Below, piece after piece: positions 1-27,560 of a DNA stretch of 64,000 nucleotides. Both the position numbers and the translations under genes were made by a program. Position 1 is the stretch's first letter, and every line of letters begins with the position of its first letter. Origin of the DNA: Blepharisma japonicum (taxonomy: Eukaryota > Ciliophora > Heterotrichea > Heterotrichida > Blepharismidae). The stretch covers positions 420,741 through 484,740 of the forward strand of contig CATKHK010000025.1 of assembly GCA_949751835.1 (NCBI GenBank), read 5' to 3'. The notes below the pieces were generated by a model, which was not told the origin of the DNA, searched no databases, and worked only from the letters and a program-made list of their open reading frames with translations.

Positions 1-1047
1 TTGCTCCCCTAGCTCCTTAAAACTCTCAATATCAGCTTGTGTCTCTTTTATCTTTTCAAACAAGCTTTCAACATTTTTAATTTTATATTTTTCAAGCCCA
101 AGTTTAAATTCTTCTTCAATATTAATTTCGCTTATTTTATCTGAATCAATTTTTTCATTTTCAAATGTTTCATAATTTATAGAAACTTTTTCAAGATCAG
201 CAAATAATTTGTTCAATTCTGTTAATATTTCTTCTTGCTCTTTTTCTTTTCGATAGTTTCCTTTTTTATTTCAAAGATTAATATATTTTTTGCAATCCTC
301 AATTTTTTTCAATAATTGTTCTTTATTGTTAATCTGATACTTTGCGAAGCCCTCTTGTATTTTTTGTTGTAAATCATATAAATTTTCATTCTGGTAATCT
401 TGAGTAAAACTACTTCTGCATTCAGTGAGCTGATCTAGTGGTGATTGCTCTTTTATATTCCCTAAGTTAGGTGCTTCATTTTTCTGCTCTTCAAAGAGAG
501 GCACTTTGGCTTCATCAATTTTTTGAGAAATAGATTGAAAATCATTATCATCAGGTGTAATTATATTATTATTTATTGGCTTTTCGCCAAAATAGATACT
601 TTTCTCTATTTTTAAATTTAGATCAGCTTTATTTTCTTCAGAATTTTCTAGATCATTAGTTAAGATATCCAATGACTCTTCATTTATCTCTTGGAGAATA
701 ATCTCAATGCCAACATCTATAATTTCTTCTCCATTTTCTTGAATTGAGATCATCTGCTTGATTGGTAAGCCTTGACCGAGATGGATATTGGCGGATCCCA
801 GCTCAATTAAATCTGATGAAAAAGCCTTTAATATTAAGAAATCTCGATCATATTTTTCGACTTCTGAATAAATTCGCCATGCTTTATTTAGAATCTCATT
901 ATCTGATTGGTGAACAAATTTTCCTGTTACTTGATTAATGAGTTGAAATTTGATCTCAAGGCTAGAGTTGATCTTAGCAATATTCTTTATTTCAGCATCA
1001 ATAACTTTGATAACCATCATCACTTCAGGTTTCAATTTCTCCACCAT
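1..1047 (-). CDS. Partial paralog (N-terminus) of the GTPase-SecA-vWA giant protein
   Basis: This gene starts at the ATG at 1045-1047 and runs off the left edge of the window, so only about the first 349 codons are visible. The protein begins MVEKLKPEVMMVIKVIDAE and is almost the same as the N-terminus of the giant protein at 2365-11697, so it is a close paralog. The one visible TGA (271-273) lies where the paralog has CGA (Arg). It reads as Trp in this genome, so the frame stays open. The visible part carries none of the catalytic domains: it is an N-terminal domain of unknown function followed by a Lys/Glu-rich, probably helical region. Whether the full GTPase and SecA-like domains follow cannot be seen. 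The gene sits on a segmental duplication that also includes its upstream region. Confidence 0.7.
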
Positions 1048-1797
1048 TTATATTATTATAAGCTATAAAAATATTGGGGCTCAAGTGGACATAAAAGATG
1101 GAAAATGGCGAAATTTTTAGAGAGAGAGTTATCTATACAAAATTTAGTGCAAAAAATACTAGAAACAAGTAAAACCCCTACTATTTTCTAAAAATTAATT
1201 TGCCTCAATAAATGAGAATTAAAGAAACCATAAAAAAATTAAAAATATTTTAGGAAAGCATGCATGCAGTATTTATATTTCATCCATAAATTATCGTTCT
1301 TGAGACTCTAATAGCAGATTGAAACAATCAAGCTCTAATTGGTAGAAGTTATAGCCCCATTTTTATATGTAAATAAGAGCCTTTCAAGACATAGCCTTAT
1401 TATTATCGTTAAGTATATAATTTAAGACTTGGAAAAGTAAATAAAAATCTAGAAACTTTAACATCTATTTTAAAGTAGCAATTTAAGCTTTATTTGAAAG
1501 AATCAATATTAATAAATAAATAAATATGAAAAATATCTGTTCTTAGAAGTTAAGCGAATTATTAATAATTCTTTATTAAAGCAAGCTTAAAGTCAATTAA
1601 AAACTTATAAAAGTTATAAATTAGTATTTTTAATATCTTAAAATTAGCATATTTCCAATTTTATTATATTCATTAGCTGCTTTTACTGTCTTAACAATGC
1701 AAAATTTCCTGAATCATGCAGGCCTAAGATTTTTGCAATTTAAATTGATTCATATAATATCTATGCATTGATATTATATGAAGCTAAAATTTGATAA

Positions 1798-1836
1798 ATA
1801 GAAGGAAAAGTCCAAGTATTAGAAACTCCAGACTAT
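1798..1836 (+). pseudogene. Truncated start of a dynamitin gene copy
   Basis: This is the duplicated beginning of the dynamitin gene at 12443. The start codon ATG has become ATA (1798-1800). The following codons match for about 13 residues, then the homology ends at the duplication boundary and a TAA follows almost at once. It cannot make dynamitin and marks the breakpoint of the duplication. Confidence 0.75.
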
Positions 1837-2094: not shown

Positions 2095-2364
2095 TTTTTG
2101 AATTATTAAAATAAAGTAATATAGCAATTCGCTATTTAATTTAAATATGATTAATTAGAAATATGTATGCAATATAAAGAGAAAATATAAACCAATTAAT
2201 TAATTTCGATTTACCTGCAATAGGGTAAAAAATAATTAATAATCTCATTAGAAAATTTAAGAATTGCAACATTCAGTAAGAATATATTTAAAATCGTTAA
2301 ATATATACTATATATTATTACAAGTATCAAAAATTTTGATAATCTTTTGAAATTATCTTAAGAT

Positions 2365-5300
2365 TTAGCGATAAATGCTAGAAAAGCCTCTATTAAAGCT
2401 TGCCATTTCATACTGTCTTTGATAAAGGTTCACAGCATCTTCGCCTGAAGTCAATCTCAAGATCTCTTTGCAAATTGCATTACTTAGATTTTCCGCTCCT
2501 GAAGAAGAATTTATATCTAAATAAGTATTAGTTCCTCTTGTCGTTTCACCTATCTCTTCAAAAGCATTTCTTGAGTTTTGGCTTGTATAAAATCCATGAA
2601 TCGGAATGCAATTTCTTGCAGCCTTTGCCAGTTCTTCATGATAGTTTTCCATAGAATTTGGTTGGGAATGTTTATGCTTCTTTTTCTTACCAAATTGATT
2701 ATTAAACGGATTTGGAGGGGGACTATTTTCAAAGTCTCCAATTAGAATTACTTGAGAAATCTTTTCATGCTTATGTCTGTCATTGATATATGTCAATGCT
2801 GTATTGATTGCTTCATTTCCTTTTCCACCTTGAGTACGAATTTCTTTGATAAAGGATTCTAATACTTCTGGTTTATTTGACCAAGAAGATTCTTGAAATA
2901 TTAAATCATGAGGGCAAGAAGACGTTCTATAAATGCAATATTTAATTTGGAAACACCCCGGACTAACTCCTTTTTTACCTAAAATTTCTCGAATGCGTTT
3001 AAAAATAATCCCAACTGTATTCTTGGCATTTTGGAGAAGATGAGACATGGGCTCTGTAGCCTGAAGCAAGATAATGATATTATAGCTATTTTCTGTAAAG
3101 TTTGAAATATTCTGCTCAAGTATGAAACTTTTGAATCCGCCAAGATTTCCGTGAGTGATATTATTTAAGAATTCAATAGACCTATCATGAGACTCTTTAA
3201 CATATTTCACATGCTTATTTTCATTACTATTTTTGGTTTCATAAAATTCATTTCTTTTTTGACACAAAAGTTCATAGATTGTGTTATTATTGCGAGCATT
3301 TAAAATATCTATATCACTGATTTGGAATTTTTGCAGCTCTTCAGCAAGCAATACCATGCTAAACGATCCTTGCTGCCCTTGTCTTGCTGATCTACCCATT
3401 ATTTGAGTTTCTTCTGATGCATCTTCAGATAAGAAAGTTTGAATTACATGAACTCCACCATTATCTTCAACAGTTTTATTTTGGCATTTAAAATCAATTC
3501 CACGTCCGAATACTCTGGTAAATAAGCTAACATATCCAGATATTGTTGCCTGATTAACCAATCTATAGCGGTCTCCTGACCTTAACTCTTCTGTCACTAT
3601 TTGAATGTGATGTCGTTTTCAGCTTGGATTAGAATTATTATAGAAATTCATTAGTTTTTCAGAAGTTTCAAAAAATATTAGAATTGCCCTCTCTCCTCGG
3701 TTTTTTCCAGTAATATGGCTATTAATTTCTTCAATTATCCTTTGAAAATAATTTTCTTTATCATTTTCGACGTGAATATCAGCATTTTCACTGAAAGCTC
3801 TATTGTTGTCTCCAAACACAGAAGGCATGTAGGTGGAATTTCTTATATTATAATCATTTTCAATAATAGTTTTTTCATGATGGCCAAGAGTTTTTAGAGT
3901 CCCTGTTACTCCCATAATATGAGTAAAATTATTTGGCATTTCAGCATAGGAAAAATCTCCACACCTTATGCTAATTCCAATGTGATTTTCAAGGCTTCGC
4001 TTGCTTATGCGACCATTTTCATGCTCTTTATAATAAGCCCACATAGTATAATATCCATAGCTTGTATGGAATGACACTCCATCATGCATTTTGTACCCTA
4101 TACGATCATCTTGCAAAATGTACTCATGCGAATCTAAATATTGAAGATAATATATCATATCTTTTGTTGCTTCAACAATCAATTCTTGATAATTAGAAAA
4201 ATAAGACCGGCATTTCATAAATTCTTGAGATTTAAATATATCTGTTAAATTGAGATTTCCATCTCTTCTACTTCAAATGAGATTAATCAGATTTTTTATA
4301 AAATCATTTTGAATTTTAGTAGCGGGCCTAAAAATTTTACCATAAAATGCTTTGCTGAAGAATACATCGACTTCATCAATCAATAATATTCTTGATCGCT
4401 CACTTTCTGAATGAACTCTAAAATCTGCATCCTCTGAATTCGGATATATTTCATTTTTAACAAATTCTCTTATATCTATTTTGCTATTGATCTCATTCTC
4501 ACATAGTTCATTAAAAGTCCCATATCTGATAAAGTCAGAAATATTTAAGCAGTTAAATAATTGACTAAACTCTTCATAATCTCTTGTGCTTAAGTGCTCA
4601 CTATAGCATGCACATCTTACGCTGAATCCCAATAGAGCTAGCATTGCTGATGTTAGACCTAAAGTCACAGATTTTCCCTCTCCTGTCAAAATTTGTATGA
4701 GGTTATTGGCAAATGTTGTTTGGCCGCTATAGCCAATACCAATCATCCTAAATATTGATAAAACTTGAACAGGGTGAGGCGACAATATCGCTTTATAATT
4801 ATTCTCATTTGAATCAGGGTTAGTTTTTTTAATATTCAAAAGAGTTCACAATGTAGCTAAATAAGCAAGAAGCTTTGGAATAATTTTTTTATCTATTGTG
4901 TCTAATTTTTTCTTAGAAGACATAAAGCCAAAACCAAAGCCAGCAGAGAATTTACTACATATAAGCACTGAAAGTTCATCAATTGCGTTACCTATACTTG
5001 AATCTGTTGTTAATTTTATATATTTACTGCTAATCTTTTTATAAAACTTTTCATACTTTGTAAAGTGCTCGGTTAATACAGTTTTATCTATATTCGATCC
5101 ATCTATTCTTTCCATAACATAAACTATATTGAATTTCTCTGTTCTATCTGACCATAATCTATGCTTTTCGGTTTCAAAAAATTTATGCTCATCAATTATT
5201 ATAAGTCCAGTGTTCTCTTTTTCAAGTTCATCATAAATCGCTCTTACTTTTAAGCTGTTATGGCTCTTAAATTGAACTAAAAGCTTATCAATTAATTTAT

Positions 5301-8300
5301 CAAGTCTTTCCTTCGCTGGAGGAAAGTTTATTGATATAGTTTTTATGCTGATTAGTGATTTAATAGCATCATTAATTGAGGTTGAAGGATTTGAAGCTAG
5401 AATTTTATGACTTTCTACTTTTTGATTAATGGTATCTTCGATTTTATTCAATATTTCTGTTAAATCTATTCCTTTAATATATATTGAATTTTTAAATGAA
5501 CATAAGAGTCTATAGCCAATTCTAAGCTTTGCATAGTCAGCGTCTAAGAAGTCTTCTTTATTAATACACTCGAATGTATTTTGTTTGACATTATCAATTT
5601 CTGCTTTCAATGAGCTAATACATTCATCATAAATTTGAGAGAATTTTAAAATATGGCTTTCAATTTCTCCAAACTTCATCATTGAGCGAAAGTTTTCTTT
5701 TAATGATTTAAAGCTATCATCAAGTATTTTTTCGTGGTTTATTTCATCATCTTGAACTGTGAAATTCTTTAAATAGCTCGCAATGCCAGAAAATTCATTA
5801 TTTAGCTCATCTGAAATTTCTAAATAGTTTTGACAATATGATAATTTCAAATAAAGTTCTATTGGATTACTATCATAATAATATTCTTCTTCAAATTCTA
5901 CATTATCACAATTTTTACAATGCAAGGATTTGAATTCTTTTAAATTCTGAAGTAATATGTCATACTCTCTGATTTTGTCAAGATGATAGTTACTAAATTG
6001 GGTATTATTAGGAGGTTTTGACATGTTATAATTCCTATATATAGTTACAAAGAAATCTGACAAAGAAGAATAAATGTTTTGAGTCGGCCAATCAAGAAAA
6101 TATAACCCGCTTCCATTTGTTTTGTCAATAAGTTTAATATTAAACTCGACTATTCTTCGAAAATCTTTTCAGCTGGATACAATAATATCTACTTTTTCAT
6201 TTTTTATATTTCTTATGCGGTGGCATATGCCTTCAAATTTTTTATTTATTTCTTCTCCTAGCTTTTTATCAATGAGATTTTTTCCATCATTTCCTAAAGC
6301 CTTCCGAATGGTTTGATAATGCTCATATATTGCTGCTTTCTCCAATGCTAATTCTAGATCATTTTGCTTTAAAGCATTGCATGCTTCATCAATAATCAAA
6401 TTCAAAACTTCCTTCAGCTTGCCTTTTGAGTCATTTATTGACTTTGAACCTCTTTTATTAAAAATATCATCAATAATTATTTGACACAATTTTTCTATAT
6501 CCTTGTCTTTAGTAGCAATTTCTAGTAGAATTGCTCTTTCTTCTTTATTTATCTTTAAATTCTTCTTTCATTCTTTAATTTTCAGCTTTACATTATTTTC
6601 AATCTCCTCTGGGAAAAACTGATAAATGTTTTCGATTGATTTAATTTTTTGCTTTTTATCGTAATAATTGCTTTTACTCATTTCTTCTTCAATAATTTCT
6701 ATTTTTTTATACACAATTTGTTTTATTTTTTCAATGCAGTCGGTAAAATTAGGATTTTGTTGCGCTGCTTTTTCAAGCTCTTTAATAATATATTTTGGAC
6801 TAATAAAATCTTTATAAGATTCAATTGGAATTTTGTCGAAATTTTCTGGAATAGATTGTGGAAGATTTTCAATCCTTGTTTTTAATCGTAAAATCTCAGG
6901 TTCTAATGGACTTGTGATTTCTGAATAGCTTAAAATGGGACATATTTTTTCAAGATTTCCAATAAAAGTCTCTGCATCACAGTAGCTATATTTATTAATT
7001 TCATGTTCAATTCTTTTAATCCATTTCTTTATTTTATCTGCAAAGAAATTATAAAAGTTTACTTCTGACTCGACTAGGCTTAATTTAACCTCTTTATCAA
7101 CATAGCTAAAAATTGTTTCTTTAGCACTTTTAATATTCTTTTGATTTTCTACAACCTTATTTATATTTTCATCTTCAATTTTTATGCTTGCCTTATCCAA
7201 GCAAAATTGACTTGCTCCCATAAGATTTACTATAATTGATTGTATTTTATTTGAGATTATTCTGAAATTACTGCGCCTCTTAAGCTTATCCAAATTATTT
7301 ATTAATATTTCTGCTTCAGAAAATTCACAATTATCTATGCAAGTAATGATATTTTTTTCAGTTTCACTAATTTGTTTGCAAAATTCATTTTGAATTTCTA
7401 AAAAACGTTTCGAAAACGTGGTTTTATTAGCTGTGATTTGGTCTATTAAAGATAGTGATTCAAATATTAGAGAAGATAAATAGTATTGATTTATTTGATT
7501 CTCATGCTTATAGTGTTCAGATGTATTAAATAGCTCTTGCTCAATACGATTTATTTTAGTATTGTATTCTTCAAGTATATCTCTACATTCCAAATAGTCC
7601 ATAATAGATTGAGCTTTATTTCTTAGATCAATTCCTTTTTCAAATGCAGAGTATAATCCTTGAGAAGCTTCTTTGCATTGGGATTCTGTCAATGATTCTT
7701 TACTAATGAATCTTTCTATTATAGCGAAATGAGCCTGAAAATTTTGATGGATTTGCTGCCAATTTTTCCTAAGAAACTCAGTAAATTTCATTCATAAATC
7801 TTCAGAGTTTTTAAATGATATTTCTTTGCATATTTTTAAATAATTTAATGAATAGTTTGCTTTTGTTCAGTTAATATTTTCCTTAGGATGAGCACTTTTG
7901 ATTTGCTTTTCTTCTTCTTCTTCTTTTGCAGGTATCTTAAATTCATCCATATCTTCATGATAATTTTCCTTAAGCGCATCAGTTTCCAAGCTATTTTGAT
8001 CCTCAGCAGATGATTTTGATTCTTCTATTTCATTGAGAAATTCAGCTTTAATTTCATTTAAAACTTGATTAATACGGCCTTTAAATTGAATATAATAGCT
8101 TTCTCCTGTCTTTTCTAATGAGGGTATAAACTCTTTTAAAGTTTCAAGTGATTTCATTTGATTTACAATCTCAAAAGCTGTTTTAATTGAACTGGAGTGT
8201 TCAATATTTAAGTCAATATCTTTAAATTTTGAATCAATTTTATCCACGAACTTAATAATTTCGTTATTAATTTTGTCTAATTCTGACTCACAAGCACCGG

Positions 8301-11300
8301 GGCAAATTCTTTCTATTCACTCCCCTTCTTTTAATCCTGCTAACGAATTTGATAATAAATTAAAATCTATTCTTTCAGAGCTTGAAAAATCATTAAGAAT
8401 CTCTTTAATGCTACTCCTAAAGCTCGCCATTTTTCTCTCTATCTCAAATATTAGATTTTTATGCGTAGTTCTCACTTTTGTCTCAACCTCACTGATTTTC
8501 ATTAGTAATTCCATTTCTTCAAAAATTGCTTTAGCAGCTGATAAGCTATGGGCATCTTTATCTCTTATAATATCAAGTATTTTTTCATCTAGTTTATTAT
8601 AATGATCAAGATATTGCTCTATTGCATTTTTGATAGAAGAATCTAAGTTTTCAATGTCAATAATATCTTTGAACACATCTATTTCTTTAATATTGCTCAA
8701 AATTCCGAAATAATTAATTATAGTATCAATATAATTTTCTTCAATTTTACCATTAGTGTATAATGGCGCTAAATTCCCAACTAAAGCCAATATACAAGAT
8801 TTTATTATTTCTAAGAGCTTTTGATATTTTATGTCTAAATCACTCAAATTCAAATATCTCCCAATATTTTTTAAGTAGGCTTTAACTTCTTTGATCTGAT
8901 TAGAACATAAATTAAAATCTTTAATTTCAAAACTCTTTTCTGCTTTCTTTATCATTTCAATAATAAAATTCTCATATATCAGCTTCAATTCAGAATTTTT
9001 CCCATTAAACTCTTCGAAAATTTCAGCAATAAGACTCAAATTTTTCAGCTTAGCTTTCGCAACTTCAATGTCAAAATTTTCAATATCGTTTTTTTCATTT
9101 AATTTGAGCTGTAGTTCAATATTACTCAAGAATTCTTCAGAAGAAGGAGTTTTTCCTTTTAGATGGTCTTCTCTAATTTTTTCTGATTCTTTGATTTCAT
9201 TAAAGCTACGCTTATATGCTTCTACAGTATCTTTGAGTAGCACATTCTTTTCATGAACTGAACTATTGAATAGCATAATAGCAGAATTAAATACTTCTTT
9301 AGTTCCTTCAATTACTGAATTGACACATTTATTATATTTATCTTCATATTCTCTAAATAAGCTAGATAATGTTTTTAAATCATCTAGCCTGTCTTTTATC
9401 ATAAAATAATCTTTTATTCGTAGTGCAGTTTCAATCTCTCCTTTATAGACCTCGATTTGATTTTCTATTCTATCTCTTGATTCTACTGTCAAAAAACAAT
9501 TGAAAATATTTTCAGGATCATTAATAGGGGTTATCTCAAGTATTTTATGGAGAATATCTTCAGGGTCATCAGTCAATGGAGAAATCACATTAATATTATC
9601 TCTTGTTTTTTTCTCAATGTCAGCTATTAAATCTCTTGTGAGGCTATCATGATTTTCATTAATTGAATTATTAATTCTTCCATGAATATTTTTAATTTCA
9701 TTTTTTTCATATCTTGTAAATGCATATGCAAAGGATTGAGAATGATTTTTTAATCCAGGACAAAATTTAGCAAGAGAATGAGCTAAATTTTTGAATCCCT
9801 GAAATCTACCACCTTCATCTTTTCCACTTATTAAAATTATTGGTCTTACGCTTTTGCATTTTTGTATTGCATTAACGATTCCTCTGGTATTTGCTATATC
9901 AACTTCAGCTCCTGCAGTGTCCATAAGTCCTGGTGTATCACATACAAAAATTTCTGATTCTGTAGGAATTTTTACTGCAGTTATATTTTTAGTTTCAGAT
10001 TTATTTAAGTTAGAAACATTAACCTTTTTGAGTACTTCATCATTTATTACTATTGGAACAATATGCTCAACGCCATTCTCTGTTATTTTCGTTAGTATGG
10101 AGCCAGCTAGAAAATGGACTGTCGTAGATTTTCCACACCCAGTTGACCCAATCAGTAAAATTATATCTTTATTTTCCAGATTTTCAGTTGCGATTTTTGA
10201 TTTTTCTATTAATCTAAATAGTTCTTTAAAATTTACAGGGCTTAGGTTTGTAATAATATTTTTGATCAGTCTAACTGCATCGTCCCAACTTTGATTGTTT
10301 GAATAATTTTTCAAATCATCAACAAGTCCATAATCTATCTTAGTATCAACTTTTCGTGCTTGTTCATTCAGAATTTCAAACTCTTGGTCTATATTTATTT
10401 GGTTTATCTTTTGCAAAAGTATTTCTGGAATTATAAATTTAAAGGATTTTAAAGAAAAATAGCACAAAATCTTTGATAAATGCTTTTCTAAACTTCATGG
10501 CATTGATTCAGTGTCTTCGTAAAGATCATCTAGAAACTTTATTTTGCTTTGAATATAATTACTTTCTCTTTCTTTTAGAATCTTGCTTACTAATTGATTA
10601 TAAAGCAAACAAAAATGTTTAAGCTCTTCTAAGGTCTTTTCTTCTTCATCTACTGACTCTTGCTCCCCTATCTCCTGAAAAATCTCAATATCAGCTTTTG
10701 TCTCTTTTATCTTTTCAAACAAGCTTTCAACATTTTTAATTTTATATTTTTCAAGCCCAAGTTTAAATTCTTCTTCAATATTAATTTCGCTTATTTTATC
10801 TGAATCAATTTTTTCATTTTCATAATTTATAGAGACTTTTTCAAGATCAGCAAATAATTTGTTCAATTCTGTTAATATTTCTTCTTTCTCTTTTGCTTTT
10901 TGATAGTTTCCTTTTTTATTTCGAAGATTAATAATTTTTTCACAATCCTTAATTTTTTTCAATAATTGTTCTTTATTGTTAATCTGATACTTTACGAAGC
11001 CCTCTTGTATTTTTTGTTGTAAATCATATAAATCTTTATTCCGGGGATCTTGAGTAAAACTACTTCTGCATTCAGTGAGCTGATCTAGTGGTGATTGCTC
11101 TTCTATATTCCCTAAGTTAGGTGCTTCATTTTTCTCCTCTTCAAAGATAGGCACTTTGGTTTCATCATTTTTTTGAGAAATAGATTGAGAATCATTATCA
11201 TCAGGGATAACTATACTATTATTTATTGGCTTTTCGCCAAAACAGATACTTTTCTCTATTTTTAAATTTAGATCAACTTTATTTTCCTCAGAACTTTCTA

Positions 11301-11697
11301 GGTCATTAGCTAAGATATCCCATGACTCATCATTTATCTCTTGAAGAATAATCTCAATGCCAACTTTAATAATTTCTTCGCCATTTTCTTGAATTGAGAT
11401 GATCTGCTTGGTTGGTAAGCCTTGAACGAGATGGATATTGGCGGATCCCAGCTCAATTAAATCTGATGAAAAAGCCTTTAATATTAAGAAGTCTTGGTCA
11501 TATTTTTCGACTTCTGAATAAATTCGCCATGCTTTATTTAGAATCTCACTATCAGATTGGTGAACAAATTTTCCTGTCACTTGGTTAATGAGTTGAAATT
11601 TAAGCTCAAGACTAGAGTTGATCTTAGCAATATTCTTTATTTCAGCATCAATAACTTTGATAACCATTATCATTTCAGGTTTAGATTTCTCCACCAT
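2365..11697 (-). CDS. Giant AIG1-like GTPase / SecA-type motor / vWA-like protein
   Basis: One uninterrupted frame of 3,110 residues runs from ATG 11695-11697 to TAA 2365-2367, with TGA read as Trp at every segment junction. Residues 1-500 are an unknown N-terminal region rich in Lys and Glu. An AIG1/Toc34-like GTPase follows, with the P-loop GSTGCGKST at about 517-525, DTPG at about 587-590 and a later FTRYEK that may be the base-recognition loop. About 1,600 helical residues separate it from a SecA-type ATPase: LTGEGKS (about 2337), a STRDYEE element like the SecA RD motif, ILLIDEVD (about 2437), GVTGTLKT, then the second motor half with GRGIDFK (about 2731) and MGRSARQGQQG (about 2767). 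A vWA-like domain with a degenerate metal site closes the protein (about 2870-3040). SecA drives protein export in bacteria and plastids. The role here is unknown. The motor motifs are clear; the GTPase subclass is less sure. Confidence 0.82.
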
Positions 11698-12476
11698 TTA
11701 TATTATAAGCTATAGAAATATTGGGGCTCAAGTGGACATAAAGATGAAAAATGGCGAAATTTTTAGAGACAGAGTAATCTAAACAAAATTTAGTGCAAAA
11801 AATACTAGAAGCAAGCAAAACCTCTGCTATTTTACTAAAAATTAATTTGCCTCAATAAATGAGAAGCATTAAAAAAACCATAAAAAAATTAAAAATATTT
11901 TAGGAAAGCATATAGTCTTTATATTTAATCCATAAATTATCGTTCTTGAGAATTTAATAGCAGATTGAAACAATCAAGCTCTAATTGATAGAGGAAATAG
12001 CCCCATTTTTATAAGTAAATAAGAGCCTTTCAAGACATAGTCTTATTATTATCGCTAGATATATAATTTAAGACTTGGAAAAGTTAATAAAAAATCTAGA
12101 ACATTAGCATCTATTTTAAGTAGCAATTTAAGTTAATTTGAAAGGATCAAAAATTAATACATAAATAAATATGAAAAACGTCTTTTCTTAGAAGTTCAGC
12201 AAATTAATCAATATTTCTCTATTAAAATAAGCTTAAAGTTAATTAAAAACTTATAAAAGTTATAAATTAGTATTTTTAATATCTTAAAATTAACATATTT
12301 CCTATTTTATTATATTCATTAGCTTTTTTTACTGTCTTAACAATGGAAAATTTCCTGAATCATGCAGGCCTAAGATTTTTGTAATTTAAATTGATTCATA
12401 TAATATCTCTGCAAGATATTATATTAAGCCAAGATTTGATAAATGGAAGGAAAAGCCCAAGTGTTAGAAACTCCAG
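10660..12476. repeat. Segmental duplication, copy 2 (matches 1-1836)
   Basis: This is the intact partner of the copy at the left edge. It contains the first 345 codons or so of the giant GTPase-SecA gene, the whole divergent intergenic region and the start of the dynamitin gene. Both genes are complete here, so this copy is probably the source. Confidence 0.85.
11698..12442. promoter_or_regulatory. Divergent intergenic region between the giant gene and dynamitin
   Basis: This AT-rich 745-base stretch separates two gene starts on opposite strands, so it should hold both promoters. Its copy at 1048-1797 is well conserved. I see no named promoter element, RNA gene or credible reading frame. Confidence 0.5.
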
Positions 12477-13450
12477 ACTACCAAAAAACAATTGAAGAAA
12501 TAAATGAAGAAATTGAGCCAAAAGTCTTCTCACAAAGTTTAGGAATTGAATCCAAATCTCGAGATAAATCATTGACTGAAATTTTCGATTATTTTAATTC
12601 CTTGGGGAGAAAACAAACTAAATATAATTATGTCAAAGAACAAAAACAAATAATTGATAGATCAGACAAAGTAGATACACTAGAGCAAGAATTGGAATCA
12701 ATAAAAGAAGAGCTTGAAAGACAAGGAACAGATTTAAACGAGAACTCTGAACTTTATAATGAAATATCAGAGCTAGGACTCTTACTTGAAGAAGTTAAAA
12801 GAAAAATGGAAATAGCATCACACATTCAAATTAAAAATTCTAAAATCAATTTTAATACTCCAAAAACACAATTGGAGGCAAGTGGTAATGGAAATTTATC
12901 AGGAGGACTTTCATTTGAAATTCAATTAAATGATTCTGAAGAAAAAAGCAGAACTGCAAGACTTGATAATAAAGTGAGAGAGCTTGAATTTATCGTAGGA
13001 AACTGGAAGCAGTCTAAGCCAGCTAATGAAAGTTTAGCTGATTTTATAGCAAAAACTCGATTTATAAACTCTGATTTACTAGAAAAACTCACAGACCAAG
13101 CTAGACATTTAGGAACTGACCTCGATATTATGCTTTCAGGCCGAACTTCAATTCAAGCATCCCCAAACTCCGTTGAGGCCATCAAAAATTTGCATCGAGA
13201 CACTTTTTCCCATTTAACCGAAATTTACAACCTCCCTCATCTAATTGACAAAATAAAATATTCCGCACCTATTTATGCAGCCCATTTAGAACTAGATTTA
13301 CAGCTGCTAGACTTAGAAACAAATGCAAACTCTTTGCTTTCTGAAATAAACCAATCAAAAGTTGTCATTGAAGACTTATCAGAAGGTATTGAGTGCAATA
13401 GAAACTCAATTTCTAGCAACATCGCAATTTTAAATCAAAAAATAAAATAA
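12443..13450 (+). CDS. DCTN2: Dynamitin (dynactin p50 subunit)
   Basis: This 335-residue protein has dynamitin's layout: a short N-terminal segment with VLETPDYQ, a central Glu/Lys coiled coil (about 70-125), then a C-terminal helical half. In that half, ARLDNKVRELEFIVGNW, SDLLEKLTDQARHLGTDLD, and the stretch from EAIKNLHRDT through DLETNANSLLSEI follow the dynamitin pattern. Dynamitin tetramerises in the dynactin shoulder and links the Arp1 filament to p150, supporting dynein-driven transport. It ends at TAA, only 8 bases before the end of the convergent SPAG1-like gene. It is somewhat shorter than animal dynamitin. No TGA codon or intron is seen. Confidence 0.72.
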   Translation: MEGKAQVLETPDYQKTIEEINEEIEPKVFSQSLGIESKSRDKSLTEIFDYFNSLGRKQTKYNYVKEQKQIIDRSDKVDTLEQELESIKEELERQGTDLNENSELYNEISELGLLLEEVKRKMEIASHIQIKNSKINFNTPKTQLEASGNGNLSGGLSFEIQLNDSEEKSRTARLDNKVRELEFIVGNWKQSKPANESLADFIAKTRFINSDLLEKLTDQARHLGTDLDIMLSGRTSIQASPNSVEAIKNLHRDTFSHLTEIYNLPHLIDKIKYSAPIYAAHLELDLQLLDLETNANSLLSEINQSKVVIEDLSEGIECNRNSISSNIAILNQKIK

Positions 13451-21998: not shown

Positions 21999-24900
21999 AT
22001 GCTCAAACAAATCGGATGCGGGCTCAATCACAGTGTCTGCGTTCTCGAAGATGGCAGTGTCTACGTATGAGGCTTATCTAAAAATGACGAGCTCGGAGTG
22101 CCTGAACTAAAAGGTTTTGCCCAATACACGCCTTACTCTTTTGACACCGCATCAGACGAATCCCATTACTCCGCAATTGAAGTAGCAGTCGGAGACACCC
22201 ACACTGCCTTATTGATTAGAGATGTATCATTACCTCCCTTAAAACTAATTTATTCAGCTGAAATACCTATCTCCAAAATCTTCAGTGAAGTTTTACAATC
22301 CGTAAAAGAGGACTGCGGCACTATGTCTGAATATCATACACAGCACTGAAAAGGAGCTAAATCCATAAGTAGACAAAAAATTGTTGCCTTTTTCAATAGG
22401 TTTTTAAGTCATGAAAATGAAGAAATAATCCAAGAAATAACTGATTTATTAATGACAAAGGCTGACCAACATGGAAAAATTTTATATAAAGAATTTAGAG
22501 ACCAATTGTATGGGTTTAGAGTTGATGATGGAAGAGTAATGACTTGGGGCTCTAAAGATAATGGGAGACTTGGAAGAGGTGATCTTAATGAAATAGGAAA
22601 TTCAAAAGAAAGGTTTGCACATCTCCCTGAAGAAATTTCGATTACTAAAATCAGTTGTGGAGGACAACATACTTTAGCTATATCTATGGGGAGAAAATTG
22701 TTTTCATGGGGCGCTAATGCATATGGACAGCTTGGAACAGGCAACACCAAAGACCAAATTGTCCCAGTCCAAGTTACAATAGAAGCTGAATATCTAGTTG
22801 ACATAGCTGGAGGAGGCTCTCATTCACTTGCGTTAGATAATGAAGGAAATGTCTATTCTTGGGGTTTAGGAGAAGGGGGACGCTTAGGGCATGGAGAAAG
22901 CAATCTTGAACTTTTTCCAAGAAAAATTAGGACACTTGACGACGTTGAATCAATCGCAGCTGGACATTCGCATTCTGGATGTATTAGAAGAGGAGAAATC
23001 TACACGTGAGGAGTTGGAACTTATGCCCGATTAGGCCATGGCACCCTAAATAACGAGTTCAGTCCAAGAGCTTTAGACTTTTTTAAAGGCCGCTATATGT
23101 GGAAACTCTGCTTGTCCTTTTTCCATTCAGCTGTATTAGCTATGAACGGAGAAGTCTGGGCATGAGGAAACTCAAAAAATGGAAGACTTGGTGTTCCAAG
23201 CTCAAGTGGAGAAAATCAGCTTATCCCTGTAAGAGTTGGGATGGGAACTATGATGGGAGCAGTCAAAATCGTCGATCTCGCTCTTGGCTATAAGCATGGC
23301 TTAGCTCTATCTAAAAGAGGACAGCTTTTTGCCTGGGGTGATGGCTTAGATGGCAAACTAGGCATAAGCTCCAAAGCTTTAGAAGAGCCAATCCCTAAAG
23401 AAGTAAAACTCCCAAAAATCCACAACAAAAAAAAGGAAGGGAAGTTAGATTTTATGCCTTTGAAGTCTACAGCAGTTGCTTCAGTTTACTGTGGAGACTT
23501 TAATTCTTATTGTTTAACCAACGCAGGAGAAGTACTTTGTTGGGGATCCAATGCAAAAGGACAGCTTGGAAATAAACCTTCAAATGAGCCTGACCAGAGC
23601 GGAGATGAAATAGAAGAAGAGGAGCCTGAATATAAAAATGATATAGAAAGAACAATGCCGAGGCCTGCTTCACAGTTTAAAGGCCGAAATAGTTACACAC
23701 CGTTGCTAATGGATGTGTTTAGAAAAGAAAAGTTCAAACTTCTTTCATCATCAGGAGAATATGTCCTAGCATTAGGGGTAAATGGAAAAGTTTGGGCATG
23801 GGGAACAAATGAGCAAGGACAGCTGGGGATTGGGTATAGCGAAAATACAAGAGTTATTAGAAGACCTGTACAGGTGGCTGCATTCAAAAGAATTGATATA
23901 AAGTTAATTGCAGCAGGCCCTTATCATTCAGCCTTTTTAGCAGACAATGGAGAAGTATATATGACAGGAAGTGCAGAATATGGAAAACTTGGCCTTGGTG
24001 ATGGCGTTTTAACAGGAAAAAGCTCAATTCAATATATACCAAGAATGGTGCTTGGCTTACCTAATGTAAAAAATATCTCATGTGGTGTGACACATACAGC
24101 AGCTCTTGATTACTCCCACCATCTCTGGGTATGGGGAAGTGGCTGGTTTGGAAAGCTCGGACTTTCTGACGCAGTTGACCGTGTTGTTCCTACTCTTGTA
24201 GATTTTAAGACTTTTCAACCCCCATCTCATGCCGGTCTAAAAGAAGTCGCATGTGGAGAGCATTATACTTTAGCTTTATCCCTTGATGGTTATGTATATG
24301 GAGCTGGACTTGCTAAATTTGCAGGTCTACAAATGGTAGGCTCAAATGAAGCTACTTCCTTCCAAAGAGTGTCCAAAATTACTAGTTCTGTGAAAACAAT
24401 ATCAGCTGGAAGAGACCATTCATTAGCTGTTACAAAAAGAGGACAAATTTATGGCTGGGGAAAAGTAAATTCTGGAAAACTCGGCCCAGGGCCATTTGTA
24501 TATATTGCTGATGACCCAACTGTAGCCTTGCCAGGACAGCTGATTATGTCACATGATACAGTGTTTGAAAGGGCAGTCTGCGGAAGTAATCATTCATGCG
24601 CCTTAACAGTAGATGGCGATGTTTTTGTATGGGGTAGCACTGGGTCAGGAAGACTTGGGCTTGCTTATATTGATGACCCTGAAATAAAAGTGCCTCAAAA
24701 ACTGTATGGGATAAATAAATGACTGTCAGAAAATAAAGAAATCGCAGAAACACAAGTTGATGACCTTGAAGAAGGAGATAATGAATACTTTTTGCAGACT
24801 TTAATAAAAAATGAGCCAGTAGAAAACTCTGAAGACGCTTTATTATTGAATGACCAAAAAATCATAACGAAACTTGATAACTTATTAATGATGTTTGACA

Positions 24901-27560
24901 AGGTAAGAGAAGTAGAGCTTGAAAGGACTAATTCTCTAAGTTATCTAGAAAGTCTAATTGTTGCCAAAATTGAAAAAATGCCTCAAGTAGGAACTCCACT
25001 CTTTAAACTTACCTTACCTCCTATTATCTCCAAAAATATCCAGCTTTACGAATATTTATTAGGTTGTCTCCAAAGCCATCCTTGCTATCTAGGCAGTATC
25101 ATTGAAAAAAATCCAAACTTGCCAAGTACCCAGCTCGCAGACATCATTAATGGTATATACGGCAACATGAAAAACGACCCCATAAAAATGCGAAGACTTA
25201 TGCTTCTTTACAAAATCGCTCTCACCATTTCTGTCGGAAAATCTGACTTCAAACGATCATTAAAAGTCAAAGCCAGCGACATCGCCTCAGAAATTTACTT
25301 TAAACTCCTCAGAAGCCAGCCCACCAACATTCAATTCATTGCTGGCCTTGCTGCAGAAATAATGAAACTCGTCTACAAAGCCAGCAAAAAAAGTGTAAAA
25401 AAAGAAAAGCCAAAGGTCGTTAAAGAAGTTTTTGCAAGAAAACCATCTCAAGCTTCTTCAAATAAAGGAAGCAATGAAGACAATAAAACAGATGAAGAGC
25501 ATGTCAGCTCCCCTGAAGCTCCTCCTATAGACGAAATCAGAAGCCAGCCAGAAGAAATTAAAAGCCAAGAAGAGGAAGATCCTCAGCATATCCGCATGAT
25601 GAGCAATGAAAGCAATTATTTTGATAAACACTTGGATGAAAATAGAGCTATTGATGAAAATGTCTCAGAAGTAGAAAGAATGAAAATCAAGGATGCGCTA
25701 AATTATAAACAATTAGAAGAGCTTGGAGAACTTCCATATGAACTACAAATTGTCTTAAAAGAAAGAATTAGCTTGTTTAAGAAAACTGCTGGAAAAGCAA
25801 GAAAACTTATTTATCAAGTTTTGAGTCATAGTCCAAAGGTCAGGAGAAGATTTCCAGCGACACAAAAGCTGTCTAATGAAGTAAAGTTTATGTATAAAGA
25901 TATTCCTTCTGTGTTTTTAGAACATTTTCCTTCACAATGTAATACAATTGAAGGCAGAGCAATTTTAGATTCAAAAATTGTTTCTTTGTTCTTTTTACCA
26001 TTGGTAGAGTTGTTAAAAGAGCCTTATCAATTGAAAAGAATGGGTATTGAAGAATTTAATAACTCTTTTCGCAAAAGTGGGGTGGGGCCAAAAGATGAAG
26101 GCGCGATGAAAATAAGTTTCAATGAATTCATAACACTATATGGGAATAACGTGAAGCTCATTGCTGAAGATTTAGAGAAGGTCGCTGAAAGAGTACAAGG
26201 ATATCTTGTAGAATTTGATGAATATAGAAAATCTTTGGTTGATGAATTAGTTAATGTCCCTGATTTAAATTTGCAAGATTTGTCCTTGGCTGATCTTTTT
26301 AGTCAATGCTTGGCAGCAGAAGACCCAAATCTTACAATAAAAGTCTGCGATATAGCCAGTATTCATTTGCTTTTGCTACAGCATTTAGATATACTAAAAG
26401 AATCTTTTTCTGAGGATGATCCTGTTGTTTTAATTATTGAGAGTTTTGGAGATATCACTGAGCTATACAAGAAAATCCTTAAAAGTGATACAAAAGATAT
26501 AAAAATGAACTTAAATCTGCCAATAAGATGACTATTAAGAGAAAGAGGAATCCAAACATGCTCAAAGTGTAAAAGTCCTCTAACTTATTCTTTACTAAAA
26601 GATAAACCATCTGAAGACCGCTTAGATGAGCCTACTACTGTTACCAAATTGTGAAATTGCTGGAATTGTGGGAATACCCAAGATGGGTGGCACATGAAAT
26701 GCTTAGAGTGTGAAGCTGTCAGGCGAGAATTCCCAATTGGAGCCTTAATTAACTGTTTCAGGCCTTTTTACAATAGTAAAGAGCTTCTTACCTTTGTCAA
26801 CATTTTGCATGGCATACCAAGAATTCCTCCAAAAATCACTCCTTATAAATTTATGAAAAATATTGTGGAAAAGGATAAAAGTGATTTTTCAATGGCTCAT
26901 AAAATAAATGGTTTTTTCAGGTCAATTATAGATAATAAGCCAAAAGAAAAGACAGAAGATGAAGCCATTGAAGATGCTATAAAAGAATTTGAAATCCAAG
27001 CGAAGCACGAATATAACTTGCGAACTGGGCATAGAGCTTATCTAGACTCCATAAATCAAATGCTTATTGAAGTGGAAGAAGAAATAAGGCTTGGATGTAA
27101 CCAATTTCAGCAAAACACAAGAACAATTTTAAAGCAAGCCTCTCTTGCAGTTAAAACAGGGAAAAATACATCTGAGGTAAAATTTAATGATGTGAATAGC
27201 AATAAAAGAGCGCAAGGAAGATTTAATATTGACTATTTGAAGAAGAAAAAAATTTTAATTAGCATGAGTGTGCCACCGGCCGTAATGAAAAACACGATAT
27301 TTTTATTTACAGAAACTGAGACTGGGTCTTTTGATGTTAAAGTAGTCCTTGTAGAAAATAGAAATTATATTTGTTTGCCGAGAGCTCCAATTGAAGTGAA
27401 ATTAATGGGATTTGAAATAGAGCCAGATAAGTTAAAAGCGATGAGAAGAACTATGAATTTTAGAGCTGAGACTTCATTTCTCGATGGGAAAATTAGTTTT
27501 AACGTATTTCAACTTGTGAGACTTCTAGGCAGCCTACTTGGAAAATGCAAACAAGAGTAA
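21999..27560 (+). CDS. RCC1-repeat / IQGAP-type RasGAP-related fusion protein
   Basis: One frame of 1,853 residues starts at ATG 21999 and crosses TGA (Trp) at 22347, 23007, 24720, 26529, 26652 and elsewhere. Several TGAs are the Trp of RCC1 motifs (VYVWGLSKNDELG, YTWGVGTYARLGHG, VWAWGNSKNGRLG). Residues 1-910 form two or so RCC1-type propellers. From about 1020 to 1511 lies a GAP-related domain like that of IQGAPs: LLGCLQSHPCYLGSII at its start and VPDLNLQDL ... IHLLLLQHLDILKESF at its end. Next comes a Cys-rich zinc-binding-like insert (CSKC, CWNC, CLEC, about 1520-1570), then a RasGAP_C domain with YLKKKKILISM and TETETGSFDVK. The FLR-like motif is replaced (SLFFLPLVELL), so GAP catalysis is unlikely; IQGAPs are also inactive. 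The protein may scaffold small GTPases and cytoskeleton. Confidence 0.82.

Follow-up and report, generated by a model that had tools for sequence, protein, structure and literature searches.

Locus and protein architecture

The 64,000-nucleotide stretch of Blepharisma japonicum contig CATKHK010000025.1 that we analyzed (the window) carries on its minus strand a single long frame, the product of which combines a GTPase domain, a long arm, a SecA-type motor and a von Willebrand factor type A (vWA)-like domain (Table 1). The original prediction for this locus had proposed a SecA-type motor preceded by an AIG1-like GTPase and followed by a vWA-like domain, and each of the eight motifs that it quoted was found once, in SecA order, in this one frame. 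The motifs GSTGCGKST and DTPG are located at residues 517 and 587, respectively. In the motor, LTGEGKS (residue 2337) and LLIDEVD (2438), with STRDYEE (2370) between them, belong to the first nucleotide-binding domain (NBD1) and are followed by GVTGTLKT (2596), GRGIDFK (2731) and MGRSARQGQQG (2767). Five features escaped the prediction: the location on the minus strand, a tandem paralogue, the missing C-terminal part of SecA, the degenerate metal ion-dependent adhesion site (MIDAS) of the ciliate vWA-like domain and the existence of bacterial counterparts.

Three of the in-frame TGA codons lie within the motor. Tryptophan was aligned with the codon at residue 2475 in 8/8 relatives, with that at residue 2284 in 6/8 and with that at residue 2693 in 0/8. 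Since two of these codons align with tryptophan in most relatives, both the frame and the reading of TGA as tryptophan are independently supported.

Table 1. Features of the ciliate locus (positions in the window) and its bacterial relatives (MAG, metagenome-assembled genome)
Feature	Position	Strand	Residues or length	Remarks
Whole frame	2365..11697	minus	3,110 aa	9 TGA codons read as Trp; zero TAA/TAG
N-terminal region	10213..11697	minus	1-495	no Pfam domain; residues 1-346 87% identical to tandem copy
GTPase	9418..10212	minus	496-760	P-loop GSTGCGKST 10123-10149; DTPG 9928-9939
Long arm	4951..9417	minus	761-2249	highly charged; helical in model
SecA-type motor	3280..4950	minus	2250-2806	NBD1 (TGEGKS, DEVD), SecA-length insertion, NBD2 (GRGIDF, GRSARQG)
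Predicted helix	3148..3279	minus	44 residues	right after NBD2, in AlphaFold model
vWA-like domain	2368..3120	minus	2860-3110	MIDAS degenerate, QATEPM
Second copy	1..1047	minus	first 349 residues	runs past left end of window
Duplicated block	1..1835	minus		92.3% DNA identity to 10660-12480; includes ~790 bases upstream of start codon
L007			3,006 aa	Chlamydiae MAG; GTPase, arm, motor, vWA
L008				Actinomycetota MAG; GTPase, motor
L009				Chlamydiae MAG, partial; GTPase half on contig
L010				Gammaproteobacteria MAG; GTPase, motor
L142 (G810)			3,093 aa	GTPase, arm, motor, vWA
L144 (G876)			3,464 aa	GTPase, arm, motor, vWA
L116				GTPase, motor
L143 (G882)	2934-11309 (own locus)		2,792 aa	GTPase; degenerate motor, SGQGKS; no vWA match

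Identity of the motor

The Pfam model SecA_DEAD matched the ciliate protein above its gathering score (E=4.6e-7); P-loop_SecA and Helicase_C stayed under theirs. A phmmer search aligned residues 2327-2786 to SecA of Bacillus subtilis across both ATPase halves (E=1.1e-10), and a five-row profile of the ciliate protein and its relatives matched SecA at E=1.8e-25, the next family being the DEAD-box helicase MSS116 (E=1.6e-4). An AlphaFold model of residues 2230-3110, made from a 37-row alignment, had a mean predicted local distance difference test (pLDDT) score of 71.9, with the motor mostly at 70-95. When this model was searched against the PDB, ranks 1-36 were all SecA chains (E from 1.9e-17 to 1.4e-11), and the first other chain was DinG (E=1.2e-7); DDX21 was also among the non-SecA matches. 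The TM-scores of the SecA rows normalized by query were modest (0.32-0.45), the alignments taking in low-confidence parts of the model. In E-value, the lead of SecA over the best other family was thus ~21 orders of magnitude by profile and ~10 by fold, and both searches placed residues ~2340-2780 in SecA rather than in another helicase family.

The ciliate motor contains an NBD1 that resembles a DEAD-type ATPase, with TGEGK[ST] and DEVD, and an NBD2 with GRGxD and the arginine-finger motif VI. Motifs I, II, V and VI were recognizable in 9/9 aligned motors (the degenerate L143 and the short L117 stood outside the alignment). The ciliate motor is therefore SecA-type by sequence, profile and predicted fold, as the original prediction had claimed.

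Bacterial relatives

A scan of bacterial genome records with an alignment as query returned 74 loci. L007, L008, L009 and L010 matched at E 2e-69 to 2e-86 and the others at 2e-19 or weaker, E-values that hold relative to the candidates alone. A GTPase followed by a motor, the order of the ciliate protein, occurs in bacterial proteins of 1,818-3,464 residues, three of which also have a vWA domain. Residues 2115-3042 of the ciliate protein align with L142 at 28% identity (E=8e-114), and the GTPase domains match separately (E=9e-13). Genome searches added further frames of the group, namely G112 (3,323 residues), G281 (1,596 residues), G063 (599 residues, at a contig end) and G576, which has broken frames and was found among genomes in the order of a Rickettsia. 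A GTPase was present in 10/11 members, the ciliate counted, whose upstream sequence is available in whole or in part, the exception being G576; two of the ten, L009 and L118, hold the half domain left on the contig. The uniqueness implied by the original prediction did not survive, since L007, L142 and L144 carry the full order of GTPase, arm, motor and vWA domain. L143, whose motor is degenerate, is possibly a pseudoenzyme, judging from its motifs.

The genes next to L007, L008, L010, L142 and L144 encode bacterial proteins (RuvB, ThiC, PheT, RNase E, GGDEF-EAL and NhaA), which rules out eukaryotic contamination as the source of these five loci. A kinase-like gene and a GST gene are also among the neighbours of L007 and L008.

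Scans of bacterial and viral contigs with a single protein gave no match, with patterns that lay outside the conserved motifs. The first alignment query found two viral contigs with proteins of the Rickettsiales type, and the second found no match among viral contigs; phage records gave no match either. Two SecA-like frames of 3,555-3,557 residues stand in the IMG/VR viral listing (L081, 4117-14787, and L082, 4096-14760) and may be bacterial; L081 clusters with Rickettsiales proteins in our trees. In a viral fold library, a DUF3638 protein of a giant virus was the best match of the 2230-3110 model, though SecA matched more strongly. A SecA-like core may be present in the DUF3638 giants as well. 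Giant-virus proteins annotated as "ubiquitinyl hydrolase" were also among the best viral fold matches. PADLOC returned a single weak P-loop match for the ciliate protein (P0001) and none for P0005.

Phylogeny and distribution

For the trees, 55 of 101 matched rows were chosen, leaving out duplicates and many distant rows, and L032, L068 and L022 were later removed; the three IQ-TREE runs contained 52-55 motor rows each, one of them eukaryotic. The ciliate motor and its relatives formed a clade with 100/100 support in all three runs, for which we coin the name GSV (GTPase, SecA-type motor and, in some members, vWA). The clade had a stem of 2.6-2.7 changes per column (2.74 in the last tree) and was separate from housekeeping SecA, from the second SecA_DEAD proteins of Planctomycetes, and from the Legionella/Parachlamydia and Rickettsiales types. 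The original prediction had called for a phylogeny against bacterial and plastid SecA; in these trees, the motor falls outside housekeeping SecA. The scores show the same gap: with the profile, the first eight clade rows (five of which built it) scored 495-894 bits, the later, more divergent G882 and G876 278-283, any other row at most 160, and 12 housekeeping SecAs 56-91.

In the first two trees, L007 was the partner of the ciliate protein within the clade (99/98). In the last tree, the ciliate protein, L007, L142, L144 and L143 formed a five-row subclade (99/98), in which all except L143 have a vWA domain and in which L007, L142 and L144 were grouped (99/98) beside the ciliate. This last run gave warnings of long branches for L143 and L010 and of unusual letter make-up for the ciliate row. 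We infer at least one transfer of the gene between bacteria and eukaryotes, in a direction that a single eukaryotic row leaves unreadable.

Genomes with a clade match at E<=1e-35 numbered 4/232 in the phylum of G001, 1/36 in the order of G004 and 2/74 in the phylum of G002. At E<=1e-60, the class of G004 gave 4/369 genomes, a sample that may have genomes in common with the 36 of its order. These four counts include the genomes of the queries themselves (G001 and G003; G004; G002; and G004 again, respectively). At E<=1e-40, 2/262 genomes matched in the order of a Rickettsia genome, G576 within the clade and the other outside it, and none matched among 299 genomes in the phylum of G012 or 289 in the class of G010, empty results that alone say little. 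Legionella was considered as a source and rejected: at E<=1e-40 the order of Legionella nautarum gave 1/143 genomes, and that match lay outside the clade. The GSV clade is rare and patchy.

Comparison of the motor with SecA

In B. subtilis SecA (PDB 1tf5, 6itc), as in the ciliate motor, NBD1 has TGEGK[ST] and DEVD, NBD2 has GRGxD and GRxxRQ, and an insertion of PPXD length lies between them; however, the two are only 12-16% identical in the fold alignments, and the ciliate motor has no C-terminal half, is embedded in a 3,110-residue protein with a GTPase and a vWA-like domain, and stands apart from the housekeeping rows of the tree. The distance from DEVD to motif III was 157 residues in the ciliate protein and 163-169 in three other clade rows, compared with 164-187 in seven housekeeping SecAs and 290-291 in two chlamydial SecAs. 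The pattern was usable in 4/8 clade rows: its value for L009 was false, and L116, L117 and L118 yielded none. Of the housekeeping rows, L127 and L130 gave no value, and L128 was not among the rows reported. Because this distance has the length found in SecA, there would be space for the substrate-binding PPXD insertion.

Past motif VI, 96-108 residues remain in the four clade rows that have no vWA domain and whose end is visible, compared with 336-338 in the two housekeeping SecAs in which the pattern located this motif. In the ciliate model, NBD2 is followed by the single long helix of Table 1 and then by the vWA-like region. The position of this helix is that of the helical scaffold in SecA, although the full scaffold was not matched. 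The CxC...C[HC] pattern of the C-terminal zinc motif was searched for in the ciliate protein and not found; many SecAs likewise have no zinc motif. By sequence and model, the helical wing, the two-helix finger and the zinc tail appear to be absent. The wing and the finger are domains of the C-terminal part of SecA. This part engages SecY, and the two-helix finger is thought to push the polypeptide chain.

GTPase, arm and vWA-like domain

The ciliate GTPase matched those of the bacterial relatives by blastp at E from 4e-4 (the half domain of L118) to 1e-17 (L144), and the P-loop, an S-x-T ahead of G3 (the switch-I threonine) and the D-x-(P/A)-G motif were present in 8/8 aligned sequences. The GTPase part of the original prediction therefore stands, but its assignment to AIG1 is not confirmed: the AIG1 Pfam model gave no match in the ciliate protein (E<=1), in P0005, P0006 and P0008 (E<=0.1) or in L142 and L144 (E<=0.01). 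The P-loop and DTPG are shared with the AIG1, GIMAP and Toc34 GTPases; however, other families scored better in both fold and sequence. The low-confidence model of the domain resembled FeoB, mitofusin, Vps1, IRG and Toc34 alike, and the Toc34 match had a fairly high TM-score by target (0.49) but a poorer E-value (2.3e-3) than the other four. In a sequence profile search of the PDB, P-loops of ABC transporters scored best, followed by septins and Der/EngA. Septin-3 (E=0.0015) also did better than the Arabidopsis T7I23.11 protein, a Toc GTPase, which was matched weakly (E=0.016-0.018) and in the P-loop only. The suggested link to the import receptors Toc34 and Toc159 is thus not supported, and "TRAFAC-like" is the only label that the motifs and the model justify.

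The arm has 32% charged residues over residues 761-2200, with 3.6% proline plus glycine, and is predicted to be helical over its modelled part (up to residue 1000). We found no strong transmembrane segment in the whole protein, in which the highest 19-residue hydropathy is 1.73.

A two-row profile of the vWA domain found it in two more bacteria (E=4e-24 and 2e-22). The MIDAS reads DATGSM in 3/3 aligned bacterial relatives and QATEPM in the ciliate, a replacement by which canonical metal binding has probably been lost in the ciliate domain. The vWA-like domain of the original prediction is therefore upheld as a domain common to the ciliate and three bacterial relatives with DATGSM, but with Pfam matches below threshold and a degenerate ciliate MIDAS.

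Tandem copy and gene neighbourhood

A second, partial copy of the gene lies at the left end of the window (Table 1). The ratio of non-synonymous to synonymous substitution rates (dN/dS) between the two copies was 0.665 over 346 N-terminal codons. Taken with the duplication, this ratio suggests that the N-terminus is under weak or changing constraint.

The surrounding genes of the window encode dynamitin, phosphatidylinositol 4-kinase, RCC1, Foie-gras and papain proteins; among them, positions 21999-27560 encode a 1,853-residue protein rich in RCC1 repeats. Two 15-nt intron candidates (29410, minus strand; 46675, plus strand) would, when removed, connect open frames. The eukaryote-type neighbours and these candidates indicate that the locus is of eukaryotic origin. 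Blepharisma stoltei has been published as reading TGA as tryptophan and having 15-16-bp introns (PMC9942806), with which the code and intron size of the window agree.

Known SecA-domain proteins and comparable systems

The original prediction regarded SecA as known from bacteria and plastids, a view that is outdated: secA-domain proteins were reported in 2013 from mosquitoes, an ant, Daphnia, other insects, Polysphondylium, Tetrahymena and Salpingoeca (Duplouy et al., PMC3639933). The Tetrahymena protein bears out its expectation of relatives in other ciliates. That report also describes long Wolbachia homologues, the adjacent wBol1_1091 and wBol1_1092 (4,488 and 11,829 nt), and reads the transfers of secA-domain genes, common to Wolbachia and insects, as from eukaryote to bacterium (PMC3639933). 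These proteins have the same kind of motor in eukaryotes; however, the accounts of them in the parts of the report used here mention no GTPase or vWA domain (PMC3639933).

G576 (L137, 5577-19998) has two adjacent SecA-like genes in the order of wBol1_1091/1092. The first, two frames spanning 4.5 kb, fits the published 4,488 nt in size and belongs to the GSV clade (100/100). It differs from the ciliate gene in being split, in having no GTPase P-loop in its first frame by motif scan and in having TGQGKS for TGEGKS. The second gene is of the Rickettsiales type and apparently interrupted, and its end lies outside the examined stretch.

SecA-like motors also occur in giant proteins of Rickettsiales and of Megaera and Legionella plasmids, which reach 5,225 residues. 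Unlike GSV, these form a separate 12-row clade (100/96), one has HEAT repeats, and the giants P0002 and P0003 have no GTPase domain (Pfam, E<=0.01). The Euplotes-associated Candidatus Megaera polyxenophila plasmid (CP113870.1; L001/L003) carries adjacent SecA-like genes of 1,589 and 5,225 residues, and the 13.8-kb Legionella geestiana plasmid (NZ_CP041715.1; L002) devotes 8.8 kb to one 2,947-residue SecA-like frame with HEAT repeats. Proteins of 1,565-2,981 residues from Oscillospiraceae/Ruminococcaceae MAGs (L012, L013, L041) form a SecA-like clade of their own, and an Omnitrophota MAG has a frame of at least 5,821 residues with a SecA-like motor (L032, 1-17463).

The ciliate protein resembles the MoxR-vWA conflict systems of bacteria (PMC8195603) in combining an NTPase with a vWA domain. 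Unlike those systems, which rely on a MoxR-vWA pair with separate effectors, it has a SecA motor in one chain.

We found no description of a GTPase-SecA-vWA architecture in the open-access literature searched, subscription papers and preprints being beyond its scope. That bacteria share the architecture goes beyond the original prediction; eukaryotic SecA-type proteins were already known.

Proposed function

The original prediction suggested a protein-moving or remodelling machine, and we retain this idea. Our preferred reading, to which we give about an even chance, is that the protein is a soluble, very large mechano-enzyme of a cross-domain clade, acting as a GTP-gated polypeptide-remodelling ATPase. 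The GTPase would serve as a switch, or as an oligomerization or docking module that takes the machine to a cytosolic target, and the arm would be a long scaffold. ATP cycling of NBD1 and NBD2 would open and close a polypeptide clamp and so, with no Sec channel involved, pull on or unfold a protein. A partner or substrate may be held by the vWA domain, probably in a metal-dependent manner in the bacterial forms and a metal-independent one in the ciliate. The tandem duplication and the mildly constrained N-terminus would suit a role against intracellular microbes or in the clearing of ingested material. In a bolder and less probable form of this proposal, the SecA motor would have been freed from the Sec channel to become a GTP-gated cytosolic gripper that unfolds or extracts proteins, for example from pathogen-containing or phagosomal compartments, and would have been exchanged between hosts and intracellular bacteria.

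Several observations weigh against polypeptide remodelling as proposed. In the ciliate GTPase, the motif for guanine specificity is ambiguous (TRYE; TKMD in L009), and the AlphaFold model of this domain is weak, with a mean pLDDT of 53 and core blocks of 72-84 among poorer ones. The Pfam PPXD model (SecA_PP_bind) gives no match in the ciliate protein, and with the two-helix finger missing, the coupling of the ATPase to its substrate must differ from that in SecA. The C-terminal domain of the ciliate protein matches Pfam vWA families below cut-off (E=0.051); VWA-type matches in 3/4 sequences were likewise below their cut-offs (E=0.065-0.12), with none in L142, and vWA profiles searched against the PDB matched no vWA structure. 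In its vWA region the model is of low quality (pLDDT 30-65), with alternating predicted strands and helices. The dN/dS value, which derives from 15.5 synonymous and 44.5 non-synonymous changes, indicates weak constraint. That the protein acts in immunity or clearance is guessed from where the gene occurs and from its duplication, and the substrate could be RNA or DNA, since NBD1 and NBD2 form a superfamily-2 core.

It is rather unlikely, in our estimate, that the locus is best described as a conflict or effector gene moving between protists and bacteria, host-acting in bacteria and, whether captured or ancestral, used for self-defence in the ciliate. Its ATPase would move host or microbial proteins, or the protein would be mainly a scaffold. 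SecA-like domains and, separately, GIMAP-type GTPases are listed among Amoebophilus effectors (PMC3482391), and a Legionella fallonii SecA DEAD-like gene is listed as eukaryote-derived (PMC4256840). These listings, the secA-domain genes shared by Wolbachia and insects (PMC3639933), the patchy distribution across bacterial genomes and the degenerate motor of L143 (SGQGKS) all favour such a gene; however, this account is silent on how the motor acts and so overlaps with polypeptide remodelling.

The main rival to polypeptide remodelling is a nucleic-acid substrate. A superfamily-2 enzyme of SecA ancestry, re-adapted to translocate on RNA or DNA and recruited through its GTPase and vWA domains, would explain why the best non-SecA matches are the nucleic-acid helicases MSS116, DinG and DDX21 and why the SecA region with the two-helix finger has no counterpart; set against the lead of SecA in the profile and fold searches and the SecA-length insertion between DEVD and motif III, we consider it unlikely. 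A true SecA-like translocase at an organelle or endoplasmic reticulum channel of the ciliate is highly improbable: both NBDs, an insertion of PPXD length and a long helix after NBD2 are retained, but the measured clade rows have lost the channel-engaging C-terminal part, the tree sets the clade apart from housekeeping SecA, and a strong transmembrane segment is absent. That neighbouring ciliate genes were merged through overlooked tiny introns or stops is barely credible; although the 15-nt intron candidates of the window make an in-frame intron conceivable, the frame runs for 3,110 codons without a stop, and the single-frame genes of the bacterial relatives, in which the modules follow one another as in the ciliate, argue against a fusion of three neighbours.

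SecA and the SecY channel are usually regarded as inseparable. A clade that has both ATPase halves and a clamp-length insertion, but not the channel-engaging part, would serve as a natural experiment on the abilities of the SecA motor by itself. The four-part design of the ciliate protein recurs in a small number of scattered bacteria, which points to a protein-handling machine that is as yet unstudied and has passed between bacteria and eukaryotes. Such a machine would provide a traceable case of machinery common to two domains of life, for which ciliates are tractable hosts in which to test function.

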